NCBI GenBank assembly: GCA_902520645.1
Contig: CABYOP010000008.1
Location: 1-37,468, forward strand
Length of the DNA: 37,468 bases
Direction of reading: 5' to 3'
Source: an uncultured Pelagibacteraceae bacterium
GTDB taxonomy: Bacteria; Pseudomonadota; Alphaproteobacteria; Pelagibacterales; Pelagibacteraceae
Part shown: positions 9,189 to 35,217 of the stretch, piece after piece
Position numbering within the stretch: position 1 is the first letter of the stretch
How the letters are laid out: each line of letters starts with the position of its first letter
The notes under the pieces: generated by a model
Databases searched by the model: none
Seen by the model: the letters and a program-made list of their open reading frames with translations, nothing else
What the model was told of the DNA's origin: nothing
Translations under genes and position numbers: made by a program

Positions 9189-10519
9189 TGTCAAAAAAAT
9201 ATTTTGGAACTGATGGAATTAGAGGTGCAATAAATAGTAAAAATATTAATGGAGACATGTTTTTTAAATTTGGTCTGGCATCAGGAACTTTTTTTAGAAC
9301 ACAAAAAAAAAATAAACAAATTGCTATAATTGCCAAAGATACAAGATTATCTGGTTATATGCTTGAACCAGCTTTGGTATCAGGATTAACTTCAGCTGGT
9401 ATGCACGTCTACACTTTAGGCCCTCTACCAACAAATGGTTTAGCTATGCTTACTAAAGCCATGAAGGCTAATATGGGTATTATGATAACTGCATCACACA
9501 ATCCACATTATGACAATGGGTTAAAATTATTTGGTCCAGATGGAATGAAATTATCTGATAAAATTGAAAAGAAAATCGAATATCTAATAGATCAAAATAT
9601 TGAAAAAAATTTATCTCAGCCTAAAAAATTAGGAAGAGTAAAAAGATTAGAAACAGGAACAAGTGATTATATTAAAATTTTAAAAAAAAACTTTTCTGAG
9701 GATTTTAATTTAAGAGGCCTTAGGATTGTAATAGATTGTGCAAATGGAGCAGGCTATAAAGCTGGTCCAGAATTATTAAAATCACTTGGAGCGAAAGTAT
9801 TAGCTATTGGTGTGAAACCAAATGGTCTGAATATTAATAAAAATTGTGGTTCAGTGTATCCAAACAACATTAAAGTAGCAGTAAAAAAATATAAAGCTCA
9901 TATTGGTATCTCACTGGATGGTGATGCAGACAGAGTGATAATGTGTGATGAAAAAAGTAATATAATTGATGGTGATCAAATTGTTGCTGCTTTAGCCACA
10001 AGATGGAAAAATAAAAAAATGTTAAAAGGGGGAGTGGTTGGCACCTTAATGTCTAACTATGGTTTAGAGAAATATTTTAAAAATAATAATATTAAATTTA
10101 TCAGGGCTAATGTTGGCGATAGGTATGTGAAAGAAAAAATGCAAAAATATAAATTTAATTTAGGTGGTGAACAATCAGGACATATTATTCTTGGAAAATT
10201 TGCAACCACTGGTGATGGTCTATTAGTTGCTTTGGAAGCTTTATTTGCATTGAGAAAAGGTAAAAAAGCGAGTGTGTTTTTTTCGAAATTTAAAAAAATA
10301 CCTCAAATATTAAAAAATATAGAAATAAAAGATAAAAAAATAATAAGCAAATCAAACATAAAAAAATCTATTAAAATTGCAGAAAAATTAATCAAAGGAC
10401 ATGGGAGAATCCTTGTTAGGAAGTCAGGAACAGAGTCAAAGATTAGAGTGATGGGTGAAAGTGAAAACTTAGATCTTTTAACAAAGTGTATTAATATAAT
10501 TGTAAGAGAAATAAAATAA
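9188..10519 (+). CDS. glmM: Phosphoglucosamine mutase
   Basis: FGTDGIRG, active-site TASHNPHYDNGLK, SLDGDADR, RKSGTESKIRVM motifs. Confidence 0.96.
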   Translation: MSKKYFGTDGIRGAINSKNINGDMFFKFGLASGTFFRTQKKNKQIAIIAKDTRLSGYMLEPALVSGLTSAGMHVYTLGPLPTNGLAMLTKAMKANMGIMITASHNPHYDNGLKLFGPDGMKLSDKIEKKIEYLIDQNIEKNLSQPKKLGRVKRLETGTSDYIKILKKNFSEDFNLRGLRIVIDCANGAGYKAGPELLKSLGAKVLAIGVKPNGLNINKNCGSVYPNNIKVAVKKYKAHIGISLDGDADRVIMCDEKSNIIDGDQIVAALATRWKNKKMLKGGVVGTLMSNYGLEKYFKNNNIKFIRANVGDRYVKEKMQKYKFNLGGEQSGHIILGKFATTGDGLLVALEALFALRKGKKASVFFSKFKKIPQILKNIEIKDKKIISKSNIKKSIKIAEKLIKGHGRILVRKSGTESKIRVMGESENLDLLTKCINIIVREIK

Positions 10520-28592: not shown

Positions 28593-31264
28593 AAAAACTA
28601 ATTTTAAATTTTAAATCTAAAGATAGCAAAAAAATTAAAATCCCCAGAAATTTTTTGGGTGGAAAAGGTGCAAATCTATCAGAAATGGGTCGGATGGGAT
28701 TACCAGTTCCACCTGGATTTACTATTTCTACAAAAGTATGCGATATATTTTATAAAGATAAAAAAAAACTTAATAAAAGTGTAATCACATCAATTAAAAA
28801 AGAGTTAAAGTCTGTTGAAAAAGAAGTTTCAAAAAAATTTGGTGATTTAAAAAATCCATTATTACTATCAGTTAGATCTGGAGCAAGAGTTTCTATGCCT
28901 GGTATGATGGATACAATTTTAAATTTAGGATTAAATGATAAAACTGTTGAAGCACTTAAATCAAAAACCTCACATGGTCGATTTGCTAAAGATAGCTATA
29001 GAAGATTTATTCAAATGTATGGCAATGTAGTGATGGGTGTTGAAGGATATCATTTTGAGGAATTAATAGAGAATTATAAACTTACAAAAGGTGTCTTGCT
29101 GGACACTGATTTAGATGAAAATGACTGGGATGGACTAATTGAAGATTTTAAAAGGACAGTTAAGGAAAGAGCAAATAAAGATTTTCCACAAGATGTTCAT
29201 GAACAATTATTGGGAGCAATCAGTGCAGTATTTCTGTCTTGGGATAGTAAGAGAGCAAAGGTCTATAGAAAATTAAATCATATACCTGCAGAGTGGGGTA
29301 CAGCAGTTAATGTTCAATCTATGGTTTTTGGAAACATGGGCGATGACTGTGCAACAGGTGTGGTTTTCACTAGAAATCCATCAGATGGTGCAAACGAAAT
29401 TTATGGAGAATATTTAATTAATGCACAAGGAGAGGATGTTGTGGCTGGTACAAGAACACCACAATATATAACTAAAAAAGCAAGACAAAATGCTAAAGTT
29501 AAAGCTCCATCAATGGAGGAGTCTATGCCCAAAGTTTATAAGCAACTTTATAAGATCCTAAAAAAATTAGAAAAGCATTACAAAGATATGCAAGATGTAG
29601 AGTTTACAGTTGAAAATAAAAAACTTTGGATGCTTCAAACACGTTCTGGGAAAAGAACTGCAAAATCTGCAGTTAAAATTGCTGTTGACATGGTAAAAGA
29701 AAAATTAATTTCAAAAAAAGAGGCTGTGCTTAGAATTGATCCTCACTCACTTGATACACTCCTCCATCCAACTCTAGATGAAAAAAGTACAATTAAGGTA
29801 ATCGCAAAAGGTTTGCCTGCCTCACCAGGTGCCGCTAGTGGTAAAGTCGTATTTACATCTGAAGAAGCAGAAAGGCTAACATCAATTATGCAGGATACAA
29901 TATTGGTTAGGGTAGAAACCTCACCTGAAGATATACAGGGAATGCATGCAGCTAAAGGTATTTTAACTGCAAGAGGTGGTATGACAAGTCATGCGGCCGT
30001 TGTAGCAAGAGGAATGGGAAGACCGTGTGTTTCTGGATCAAGTGAAATTGATATTAATTATGAAAAGAAGTCATTTAAAACATCATCGATGGAAATTAAA
30101 GAGGGAGATATAATTACAATAGATGGTTCAACAGGAAGAATAATCGAAGGTAGTGTTGCAACTTTAAAGCCAGAAATATCTGGTGATTTTTCAAAATTAA
30201 TGTCCTGGGCAGATAGTTATAGAAAATTAAATATAAGAACAAACTCTGAGACTTCAAAAGATACTAAAACCGCAAAAGATTTTGGTGCTGAGGGCATTGG
30301 ACTTTGCAGAACTGAGCATATGTTTTTTGATGAGGAGAGAATTTTATCAGTAAGGGAAATGATTCTTTCTAAAACTAAAGAGGACAGAGCTAAAGCTTTA
30401 GATAAACTTTTACCTCATCAAAAAAAAGATTTTACTGAAATTTTTAAGATTATGAATGGCTTGCCTGTTACAGTGAGATTATTAGATCCTCCTCTACATG
30501 AATTTTTACCAAAAACAAATAAAGAAATAAATGAATTAGCTGAAACTGTTAATCTTTCAATAAAAGAAGTTGAAACAAGAATAGAGGAACTTCACGAACA
30601 AAATCCAATGTTAGGTCATAGAGGTTGCAGATTAGCTATATCATTTCCTGAGATATATGAAATGCAATGTAGAGCAATTTTCGAAGCACTATGTGAGCTT
30701 AAAAAAAACAAAATTAAATCAGCTTTTCCAGAAATTATGATCCCATTGGTTTCTACAGAAACTGAAATTAAACTAATGAAAGATTTAGTTAAAAAAGTAG
30801 CAATTAAAGTTCAAAAAGAAAATAAATTAAAAATAGAATTTACTGTAGGAACAATGATTGAGCTTCCAAGAGCAGCTATTAAGGCAAAAGAAATAGCAAA
30901 ACATGCAGAATTTTTTAGTTTTGGTACCAATGATTTAACACAAACTACATTTGGAATAAGCAGAGATGATAGCGGTAAATTTTTAAATGATTACTTAGAA
31001 AATAAAATATTTTCTGTTGATCCTTTTGTTTCAATTGATGAGGGAGTATCAGATTTAGTTGAAATAGCTGTAAAAAAGGGAAGAGGACAAAACAAGAAAC
31101 TAAAGCTAGGTATTTGTGGTGAACATGGTGGGGATCCAAAAAGTATATTTTTTTGTGTTAAGGCAGGATTAGATTATGTTTCTTGCTCTCCATACAGAGT
31201 TCCCGTAGCTAGATTAGCTGCTGCGCAAGCAGAGCTAAAAAATTTATACAAAAATAATAAGTAA
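28589..31264 (+). CDS. ppdK: Pyruvate, phosphate dikinase
   Basis: 891 aa; GGKGANLSEMGRMGLPVPPGFT; phospho-His region GGMTSHAAVVARGMGRPCVSG; C-terminal GICGEHGGDPKSIFFCVKAGLDYVSCSPYRVPVARLAAAQAEL. Confidence 0.98.
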   Translation: MKKLILNFKSKDSKKIKIPRNFLGGKGANLSEMGRMGLPVPPGFTISTKVCDIFYKDKKKLNKSVITSIKKELKSVEKEVSKKFGDLKNPLLLSVRSGARVSMPGMMDTILNLGLNDKTVEALKSKTSHGRFAKDSYRRFIQMYGNVVMGVEGYHFEELIENYKLTKGVLLDTDLDENDWDGLIEDFKRTVKERANKDFPQDVHEQLLGAISAVFLSWDSKRAKVYRKLNHIPAEWGTAVNVQSMVFGNMGDDCATGVVFTRNPSDGANEIYGEYLINAQGEDVVAGTRTPQYITKKARQNAKVKAPSMEESMPKVYKQLYKILKKLEKHYKDMQDVEFTVENKKLWMLQTRSGKRTAKSAVKIAVDMVKEKLISKKEAVLRIDPHSLDTLLHPTLDEKSTIKVIAKGLPASPGAASGKVVFTSEEAERLTSIMQDTILVRVETSPEDIQGMHAAKGILTARGGMTSHAAVVARGMGRPCVSGSSEIDINYEKKSFKTSSMEIKEGDIITIDGSTGRIIEGSVATLKPEISGDFSKLMSWADSYRKLNIRTNSETSKDTKTAKDFGAEGIGLCRTEHMFFDEERILSVREMILSKTKEDRAKALDKLLPHQKKDFTEIFKIMNGLPVTVRLLDPPLHEFLPKTNKEINELAETVNLSIKEVETRIEELHEQNPMLGHRGCRLAISFPEIYEMQCRAIFEALCELKKNKIKSAFPEIMIPLVSTETEIKLMKDLVKKVAIKVQKENKLKIEFTVGTMIELPRAAIKAKEIAKHAEFFSFGTNDLTQTTFGISRDDSGKFLNDYLENKIFSVDPFVSIDEGVSDLVEIAVKKGRGQNKKLKLGICGEHGGDPKSIFFCVKAGLDYVSCSPYRVPVARLAAAQAELKNLYKNNK

Positions 31265-31286
31265 ATACTAACATTATAAATTAGTT

Positions 31287-32195
31287 CTATCTTTTTTTTA
31301 AAATTATTCCAAGGGCAACATCAGATCTAGTAAAAATAGATATTAATATTTGAAGTGGAAATAGAATAATGTTTAAAAAACTAAATCTTAATTCTTTTTT
31401 AAATTTCAACATATTTTGAATTGAGGTACCTAAAATAGGTATATTCATAGAATGAAATGTCAATTTAAAATCTTTATTAAAAGCTTTTGTAAAATTTTCT
31501 TTATTGAAATGGTTTATATGATGAGGCAAACATAATTGTGCATAATTATTTCTAAAAATTTTAAGAAAGATATTTGATTTTATACTGTGATTAGGTATTT
31601 CAACATAAATTGTTCCATCTTTCGATATTTTTTTACTTAAATTTTTAATATATCTTTTTGGATTAGGACAGTGTTCCAACACATGTCTTAGTAAAATTAT
31701 GTCAAATTTTATTTTTTTTTTTTCTAACATTTTATAATTAAGATATTTAATATTTTTTTTTAAATTAGATGGTTTTTGTAAACTTATATCACTTGCAAAA
31801 AGTCTATTTTGATTTTTGCTAAAATAATTAATAAGATAACCATCTCCTACACCATAGTCCAGAATATTTAATTTTTTTTTTTTTATATTTAAAAAAACTA
31901 TTTTCTCAATTTTTTTTACTTGAAATATACGTAACTTATGAAAAAAATTAACTAAAAAATCAAACTTATATTTTATATCTTTTTTTTGATCTGAGCCTCC
32001 ATATTTATAAATTTCAGACCACGTAAAACTATTTGCTGGAATCTTATTTGTAAATTCACAATTACATTTTTTACATAAATTAATTCTAAATATATTTTTT
32101 AAAAATTTTTTTTCATAAATTGTTCTATTAAAATTATTTTCTTGATTACAATTAAAACATTTATATTTTGTAAATTTTAATTTATTGATCACCAT
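31287..32195 (-). CDS. SAM-dependent methyltransferase with N-terminal Cys-rich (putative zinc) motif
   Basis: N-terminal CFNC...CKKC; GxGxG-like ILDYGVGDGYLINYF; LLRHVLEHCPNPKRYIKNLSKKISKDGTIYVEIPN, as in Methyltransf_23-like proteins. Confidence 0.85.
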   Translation of the reverse strand: MVINKLKFTKYKCFNCNQENNFNRTIYEKKFLKNIFRINLCKKCNCEFTNKIPANSFTWSEIYKYGGSDQKKDIKYKFDFLVNFFHKLRIFQVKKIEKIVFLNIKKKKLNILDYGVGDGYLINYFSKNQNRLFASDISLQKPSNLKKNIKYLNYKMLEKKKIKFDIILLRHVLEHCPNPKRYIKNLSKKISKDGTIYVEIPNHSIKSNIFLKIFRNNYAQLCLPHHINHFNKENFTKAFNKDFKLTFHSMNIPILGTSIQNMLKFKKELRFSFLNIILFPLQILISIFTRSDVALGIILKKR

Positions 32196-32266
32196 AAGTT
32201 GTTAATTACATTTAAAAAAATTTAAGTCTATCGAAGATGTTCCTGCAACTATGTGGTGTGGCGTAA

Positions 32267-32353
32267 ATGGCATATATTAATTATGTGTCTTGTTCCCCTT
32301 ATAGAGTTCCAGTAGACAGATTAGCAGCAGCACAAGCAGAACTTAAAAAATAA
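32267..32353 (+). pseudogene. C-terminal relic of a second, divergent ppdK (about 28 codons)
   Basis: MAYINYVSCSPYRVPVDRLAAAQAELKK* matches the intact PpdK C-terminus DYVSCSPYRVPVARLAAAQAELKN; upstream reading frame is stopped (TAA just before the ATG). Confidence 0.88.
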
Positions 32354-32380
32354 TTATTTTTACGAGGGGGCATGTGTAGA

Positions 32381-32534
32381 ATGACTAATAAATCATTATT
32401 AACAGAAAATAAAGACTTTTGGAAACTTCAGAGTTGAAGTATTTGAAAGAGTTAGAGATTTAGGATTTAATAATAACCAATTGTATTTATTCATGGAAGA
32501 TAACCCTTCTATAGGTATGATAAATTTAAATTAA
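32381..32534 (+). pseudogene. Possible frameshifted remnant of a small ORF
   Basis: ATG at 32381 reads MTNKSLLTENKDFWKLQS*; another frame continues KTFGNFRVEVFERVRDLGFNNNQLYLFMEDNPSIGMINLN* to 32534, with protein-like composition but no good start. Suggestive only. Confidence 0.4.
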
Positions 32535-32596
32535 AACTAAACCCTAATATTAATATATTTGGATTATGAAAAATATATTTTAATTATTATCTTATA

Positions 32597-33937
32597 ATGA
32601 ACTTCCTAAAAAAAACATTTTCACCAACAATTTTAGTTATATCGTTTTTGTTATTTTTTTATACATTTTATAAATCAGAAATTTTTTGGCTTGGAGGCAA
32701 AAGAAGTTATTATTTAACTTATTATTTTATATCATCATTATTAATTTTTTTTTCTATCCTTACATTTTTTATTAATCAAAAAATAAAGGAATATTTAATT
32801 ATTACAGTTATAAGTTTATTAGCAAGTTTATATCTATTTGAGGGATATTTAACTTTTAAAGAGAAACCTTCAAATAAGGAATTTTTATATTCAAAAGATT
32901 TAATTTTAAAAGAAAAACTTTTTGAAAAACGAACTGGAAAAAAATGGGATAAAAGAAGCAGATTTGAAATTTACAATGATTTAAAAAAAAAAAATAATAA
33001 GGTTGTAGTAAGTGTTGGTCCAGAAATTTATCTTAAAAATAATTTCTCAATTTTTTCTTTATCAGCTATTTCAAATTCTGAAACAATCTTGTGCAATGAA
33101 AATGGATACTATGCGATATATCAAAGCGATAGATATGGATTTAATAACCCAGATACAGAATGGGATAAAAATAAAATTGAGTATATTTTAGTTGGAGATT
33201 CTTTCACTCATGGCTATTGTGTAAATAGACCAGATGATATCAGTTCTGTTCTGAGAACTTTATCAGGTAAATCAACATTAAATTTAGGACGATTGGGAAA
33301 TGGACCATTAAATCAGTACGCTACATTAAGAGAATATTTAAATTCAAATGTAAGAAAAGTCTTATGGATTTATTATGAAGGTAATGACTTAAAAGATTTA
33401 GAAAATGAAATGAATAACCAAATTTTAATTAATTATTTAAATGATTTAACTTTTACTCAAAATCTTAAATTAAAACAAAATGATATTAATATTTTAACAA
33501 AAAACTTTATAAAAAGATATAAGGATAGAGATAGAAATATAGACAAAGAAAAATTAAAATTTAAATTATTTAAATTTATTAAAATTTTTAATACAAGAAA
33601 TTTAATCTTTCCACCACCACCCGTACCAACACCAAAACTAGAATTTAAAAAAATACTTCAATCCACAAAAGAACTAACAGAAAAAAATAATTCAAAATTG
33701 TATTTTGTATATTTGCCTGAATACCAACGTTATAAATCAAATTATAATAATAAAGATTATAATTTGGTTAAAAGTATTGTAAGTGAACTAAACATTCCTT
33801 TCATTGACATACATAAAAAAGTTTTCGAAAAAGAAAAAAATCCTTTAAAACTTTTTCCATTTGGACTTTATGGTCATTACAATGTTGAAGGTTACAAAAA
33901 AGTTGGTGAAACTATTTTTCAATATACCAAAGATTAG
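32597..33937 (+). CDS. Membrane-anchored SGNH/GDSL-type hydrolase or acyltransferase-like protein
   Basis: N-terminal TM segments; GDSFTHG (block I), LGNGPLNQY (block II), YEGNDL (block III), GHYNVEGYKKVGETI (block V-like). Confidence 0.75.
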   Translation: MNFLKKTFSPTILVISFLLFFYTFYKSEIFWLGGKRSYYLTYYFISSLLIFFSILTFFINQKIKEYLIITVISLLASLYLFEGYLTFKEKPSNKEFLYSKDLILKEKLFEKRTGKKWDKRSRFEIYNDLKKKNNKVVVSVGPEIYLKNNFSIFSLSAISNSETILCNENGYYAIYQSDRYGFNNPDTEWDKNKIEYILVGDSFTHGYCVNRPDDISSVLRTLSGKSTLNLGRLGNGPLNQYATLREYLNSNVRKVLWIYYEGNDLKDLENEMNNQILINYLNDLTFTQNLKLKQNDINILTKNFIKRYKDRDRNIDKEKLKFKLFKFIKIFNTRNLIFPPPPVPTPKLEFKKILQSTKELTEKNNSKLYFVYLPEYQRYKSNYNNKDYNLVKSIVSELNIPFIDIHKKVFEKEKNPLKLFPFGLYGHYNVEGYKKVGETIFQYTKD

Positions 33938-33965
33938 ATCTTACTGTTCGTTGGGAAAGGAAATT

Positions 33966-34227
33966 ATAAGGGGCGTTCTGTTGCCAGGTGCCCCAGACCC
34001 CGTTTGCTTAATTAACTAAGTTAATTAGGCAGCAAGTGCATAACTTTCGTTAGCAATTATAAATTAGCCCGTTACGGTGGAACAATCCCGAACGAAAGAA
34101 TAGCCTTTAGTCATCCGTCGAATCTAATTCACCCCCATAAGTTGTAATGGTGGAGGTGGTGGGTACTGCCCCCACGTCCGCAATGTTTATTACGAAATTC
34201 GTTTATCGTCATAGTTGGAAAACCAAC
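33966..34227 (-). ncRNA. ssrA: Circularly permuted two-piece tmRNA gene: acceptor piece about 34227-34148, intervening segment about 34147-34137, coding piece about 34136-33966
   Basis: Minus strand: T-arm and acceptor GCGGACGTGGGGGCAGTACCCACCACCTCCACCA (CCA at 34150-34148), then GGGGGTGAATTAGATTCGACGG (tmRNA 5' end from 34136). GGGGGTG pairs with CACCTCC (7 bp, one GU). Tag frame GCT AAC GAA AGT TAT GCA CTT GCT GCC TAA (ANESYALAA*) at 34054-34025, with its stop in a hairpin. Outer ends are approximate. Confidence 0.93.
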
Positions 34228-34269
34228 ATTATTAATATAAAAGGAATTACAACAGATTCAATAACAATC

Positions 34270-35217
34270 ATGAAACTTACCAAAGAGCAAGCAGAAGAAA
34301 TAAAAAATCAACAATCTCAAAGTAACCAAACTAAAAGAGTTACTGCACCGGAGCTTGAAACTATTCTTTATGATGCAATTCCTGCATTAGATCATGGTTT
34401 CGTTCGGGTAGTAGATTATATGGGGGATGATACTTCAATTGTTCAATCTGCCAGAGTTTCATATGGAAAAGGAACTAAGCAAGTTTCAACTGACAAAGGT
34501 CTAATTAAATATCTTATGAGACATTGGCATAGCACACCTTTTGAAATGTGTGAGATAAAATACCATATCAAGCTTCCAATATTCATTGCACGACAGTGGA
34601 TAAGACACAGAACTGCAAATGTTAATGAATATTCTGCAAGATATTCAATTTTAGATAAAGAGTTTTATTTACCGTCTTCAGAAAATTTAGCTGCGCAGTC
34701 TACTAGTAACAGACAAGGAAGAGGAGATGTCTTAGAAGGAAAACAAGCTAAGGAAGTATTGGAGCTTTTAAAAAGTGATGCCGAAAGAACATATGATAAC
34801 TATGAAACCATGCTGAATGAAAGATTTGATGGATCTACTATTGACGAAAATAAAAAAGGTTTAGCAAGAGAACTTGCAAGAATGAATTTAACTTTAAACA
34901 CATATACCCAATGGTATTGGAAAACTGATCTATTAAATTTGATGAATTTTTTAAGACTTAGAGCTGACAATCATGCACAGTACGAAATAAGAGTATATGC
35001 AGATATTATGTTAAACACACTTAAAAAATGGGTTCCAATTACTTATGAAGCATTTATGGATTACAGAGTAGGGGGCACTGAAGTTTCATCAAAAGGAAAG
35101 TCAATTATTCAAAAACTTATTAATGGCAAGGAAATTAATTTAGAAAGCTCAGGATTATCTAAAAGAGAATGGAATGAGTTGATGGAAGCTTTTAATCTAA
35201 AAGACAAATTAGTTTAA
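34270..35217 (+). CDS. thyX: Flavin-dependent thymidylate synthase
   Basis: [21 protein letters not shown] is the ThyX RHRxxSxNxxSxRY-type motif. Start placed at [12 protein letters not shown]; the 41 upstream residues in the track (from 34147) translate the antisense of ssrA. Confidence 0.95.

Follow-up and report, generated by a model that had tools for sequence, protein, structure and literature searches.

A circularly permuted tmRNA gene of the usual alphaproteobacterial form beside thyX in a Pelagibacteraceae genome

Next to thyX in the genome of an uncultured Pelagibacteraceae bacterium, the minus strand carries two segments that resemble the halves of a tmRNA placed in the reverse of the standard order. 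Is this a working ssrA gene? Would its transcript be cut into two pieces, and what becomes of the few nucleotides between them? Are its small dimensions out of the ordinary? The window in which these questions arise is the whole stretch of DNA analysed here, 37,468 nt of contig CABYOP010000008.1. A preliminary description had read the locus as a permuted two-piece tmRNA of a known class, encoded on the minus strand with the acceptor half first. The sequence agrees with this in both coordinates and order, and the identification is correct. The locus is almost certainly a working ssrA (tmRNA) gene of the Pelagibacteraceae (SAR11), in the circularly permuted form usual for alphaproteobacteria.

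The complete gene occupies 33966–34227 of the minus strand, on which the acceptor half comes first and the 5′ half second. The acceptor piece (34148–34227, 80 nt) is delimited by two Rfam models (RF01849 and RF04321), an alignment and pair counts, and its 5′ end is a predicted one. It starts with the hairpin GTTGGTTTTCCAAC (34227–34214), continues with TATGACGATAAACG... and GGAC, and then forms the T arm GTGGG GGCAGTA CCCAC (34175–34159). The acceptor 3′ strand CACCTCC (34158–34152), A73 (34151) and an encoded CCA (34150–34148) complete it. Next comes an intervening segment of 11 nt, TTACAACTTAT (34137–34147), located from the sequence and an anchored scan of related loci and not expected to remain in the mature RNA. 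The coding piece (33966–34136, 171 nt, from the Rfam match, with a predicted 3′ end) begins GGGGGTGAATTAGATTCGACGG..., and the GGGGGTG that opens it (34136–34130) is the acceptor 5′ strand. This strand pairs with CACCTCC in a 7-bp stem that includes the G3-U70 wobble, which is what alanyl-tRNA synthetase recognises (PMC3985003). Further on, a tag reading frame (34025–34054, GCT...TAA; ARAGORN coding part 190–219) encodes ANESYALAA, and on the 3′ side conservation in the order alignment drops just past GCCCC near 33970. A 7-bp acceptor stem across about 11 nt and fragments of about 75–80 and about 170 nt had been anticipated; the stem has 7 pairs, the spacer is exactly 11 nt long, and the predicted sizes agree with the conserved boundaries (80 and 171 nt).

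How secure is the identification? Scored against the covariance models, a check that the preliminary description had proposed together with ARAGORN, the locus matches alpha_tmRNA (RF01849) with 227.6 bits (E 6.7e-65, gathering score 50) over the whole model, 1–355, and tmRNA_permuted (RF04321) with 130.1 bits (E 2.1e-25). Both matches lie far beyond chance level, and the pseudoknots of the coding piece are outside the scoring of the models used. ARAGORN calls a tmRNA at the locus, with the tag ANESYALAA. Membership in RF01849 is borne out by a covariance-model score above the gathering score, by an acceptor piece that precedes the coding piece and pairs with it across the spacer, by the alanine identity pair G3-U70 together with a 3′ CCA, by a tag frame with resume codon and stop (GCT...TAA), and by the SmpB partner encoded in the genome. 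The SmpB gene (PF01668 at G000:C36:2-355, E 3.4e-47) is cut by a contig end; SmpB is also found in 16 of 16 near-complete relatives, and RNase P RNA is present in the same genome. The single-strand minimum-energy fold of the tmRNA gives a z of −3.27, a measure by which the tRNA-like domain is not judged. As for the origin of the locus, those nearest to it by thyX sequence all carry the name Pelagibacteraceae, Pelagibacter or Pelagibacterales, and blastn against 50,697 phage records returned no similar record that would link it to a phage tmRNA.

The pairing itself was followed through an alignment of 50 sequences from Pelagibacterales and other alphaproteobacteria, in which the acceptor, T and P2 helices were counted. 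Standard pairs account for 96.0% of cells, a share that drops to 37–50% when the partners are slid by 1–3 columns, and 9 of the 18 pairs vary on both sides (104 such cells, compared with a shuffled mean of 31). In the acceptor stem all 7 pairs are formed in 100% of cells, two of them with compensatory change, and the U-G pair corresponding to G3-U70 (columns 51/97) is invariant. These pair counts are biased towards structure because the loci were found by a helix-containing model and then passed through a pairing filter. The compensatory changes are clear despite this sampling bias, particularly in P2, a helix that played no part in the filter. At the level of aligned sequences, the covariation supports all three helices.

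How would such a gene give rise to a functional RNA? One short precursor would be transcribed from a promoter at 34261–34234. As in other alphaproteobacteria, tRNA-processing enzymes would then cut after the CCA and before GGGGGTG, so that the 11-nt segment is lost, and the 80-nt and 171-nt pieces would stay joined by base pairing in the acceptor stem and in P2, a pairing that covariation backs here. By homology, the RNA would be charged with alanine via the G3-U70 pair and would act with SmpB on stalled ribosomes, where a tag ending in ANESYALAA would mark the unfinished protein for proteolysis. In Orientia, Northern blot and RNA-seq have shown such a precursor to be cut to pieces of ~80 and ~240 nt (PMC7335160). 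The function of the permuted tmRNA of Caulobacter has been reviewed, and its processing is probably carried out by RNase P and tRNase Z (PMC3985003).

Is the spacer really removed? A single cut after the CCA could instead leave the coding piece with the spacer as its 5′ leader, and spacer conservation speaks for this: over its final 8 nt, 67 thyX-linked SAR11 loci show hardly any variation, with a mean pairwise identity of 0.99 compared with 0.81 for the promoter spacer. However, intact tmRNA copies displaced from thyX can bear different spacers, spacer length and sequence differ widely across the class, and the RNase P present in this genome is thought to share in processing (PMC3985003). Retention of the spacer is quite unlikely on this evidence, and we keep to its excision. 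Why, then, should a segment expected to be cut out have a core, CAACTTA, that is invariant in the 67 thyX-linked copies? The spacer might be selected beyond spacing, as a processing signal or a thyX element, a doubtful idea which draws on this invariance and on a core that can still be made out next to thyX in a small number of genomes with a displaced tmRNA. There, 4 of 10 loci retain AAGTTG (part of the complement of CAACTTA) at 81–96 nt upstream of thyX. The motif may be a simple residue of the lost gene, and the data in which the pattern was seen are those that gave rise to the idea.

The preliminary description had also held the 11-nt spacer and the compact coding piece to be noteworthy, but both are the norm in Pelagibacterales, and the locus is published for P. 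ubique. Among 147 Pelagibacterales loci from the anchored scan, after removal of three low-scoring false matches (L074, L105 and L128), the spacer has a median of 11 nt and a range of 4–16, so its length here equals the order median and was rejected as an outlier. The median for 67 other alphaproteobacterial loci is 34 nt (range 2–333), an approximate figure because this class sample combined score-based with manual selection. Two ~0.6-Mb genomes of another alphaproteobacterial family (L214, L217) have permuted tmRNA spacers of 2 and 3 nt. Measured to the end of GGCAACAGAA, the coding piece is 161 nt long, which is again the order median (range 156–162; class median 191.5) and removes it as an outlier too. 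An open tag frame is conserved across the order: all 146 order tags that were read have nine residues, ANESYALAA itself occurring in 72 order loci. Spacer, coding-piece and tag lengths are all ordinary for the order.

On the far side of the promoter lies thyX, a flavin-dependent thymidylate synthase gene (34270–35217, plus strand; Pfam Thy1, E 9.6e-56) that diverges from the tmRNA. The predicted sigma-70-type promoter of the tmRNA (34234–34261, minus strand) consists of TTGAAT, 16 nt and TATATT. A promoter pattern scan is at chance level by itself; in the order alignment, conservation extends over TATATT and a good part of TTGAAT, and TTGAA[TC]-16-TATATT is matched by 67 of 71 thyX-linked loci. 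Where does thyX begin? An in-frame ATG at 34147 on the plus strand yields a 356-aa ORF, the longest for thyX, which starts opposite the CCA end and runs antisense through the acceptor piece (34147–34269). Relatives align from 34270, and, judged from sequence, this is probably the true start and the ATG at 34147 is not. Of the 71 loci that have a tmRNA within reach, 68 keep a distance of 120–139 nt from the CCA to the thyX start. Since the predicted tmRNA promoter sits in the short gap before thyX, thyX would have to be transcribed from a promoter within the tmRNA gene or within that gap, or else by antisense read-through across the tmRNA.

The other flank of the gene is far less constant. Here the interval from the pyruvate phosphate dikinase gene to the tmRNA (31287–33937) holds a methyltransferase gene and then a GDSL/SGNH-like gene, and the content of this slot differs greatly across other SAR11 genomes. 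Across 58 loci, the gene on the side away from thyX falls into 31 clusters, pyruvate phosphate dikinase being the commonest (15). Direct repeats were considered as island ends around 31200–34320, and only AT-rich or chance-level repeats turned up. In 10 of 80 SAR11 thyX loci the tmRNA does not adjoin thyX, and for those with both ends on a single contig the interval spans ~1.4–11 kb; some of the genes in it resemble surface-polysaccharide or membrane genes, as judged by sequence starts only. Intact displaced copies (L263, L267, G330:C1:154-454) either lie beyond inserted genes or sit on a different contig. Loss of the tmRNA at such loci is not shown, because six of the seven genomes searched keep an intact copy elsewhere. 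Five SAR11 genomes with estimated completeness of 94–97% (G225, G278, G287, G267 and G275) have SmpB and no alpha_tmRNA match, perhaps because the assembly is broken at the variable region, or possibly through true loss.

Could the copy described here itself be decayed or displaced, the genome having its working tmRNA at another site? Such a case exists in L125, where a broken remnant upstream of thyX is without T arm, acceptor 3′ strand and tag and the intact copy is on another contig; fainter remnants are seen beside thyX in L074 and L128. The genome studied here is also incomplete: it has a single alpha_tmRNA match and no standard-form tmRNA above cut-off, and at ~65% completeness the absence of a second copy is not proven. 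Against this, the conserved helices, CCA, tag frame and 3′ end are all intact at our locus, its score is similar to that of the same gene in whole-genome relatives, and it is the lone match. A decayed or displaced copy is highly improbable, and a working ssrA gene is the reading we retain.

Has such a gene been described before? In 'Candidatus Pelagibacter ubique', a 2009 study of structured RNAs placed a split and permuted tmRNA beside thyX, in HTCC1062 in the intergenic region 10302–10518 next to SAR11_0010, and considered the thyX start probably misannotated so that it overlaps the tmRNA (PMC2704228). Likened by description, our locus is the same: permuted, divergent from thyX and with a thyX start misannotated into the tmRNA, and this description-level comparison found no difference. 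The same paper cites 75–125 bp between sections as a general range from tmRDB (PMC2704228), whereas Pelagibacterales spacers, at 4–16 nt, are far shorter. Compared with RF01849 and RF04321, the gene shares the piece order, helices, encoded CCA, G3-U70 and tag frame, and differs in its shorter spacer (11 nt, where the class median is ~34), a shorter coding piece and a nine-residue tag, all three being typical of Pelagibacterales. Because the P. ubique locus was described in 2009 and permuted tmRNAs are numerous in a 2025 database (11,946 unique sequences; PMC11915505), the SAR11 permuted tmRNA beside thyX is already known. The present locus adds no new mechanism; the measured spacer-length distribution for Pelagibacterales is a modest addition. 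For SAR11, the gene represents a housekeeping RNA prone to being overlooked in annotation, and it accounts for how the start of thyX can be called too early in these genomes.
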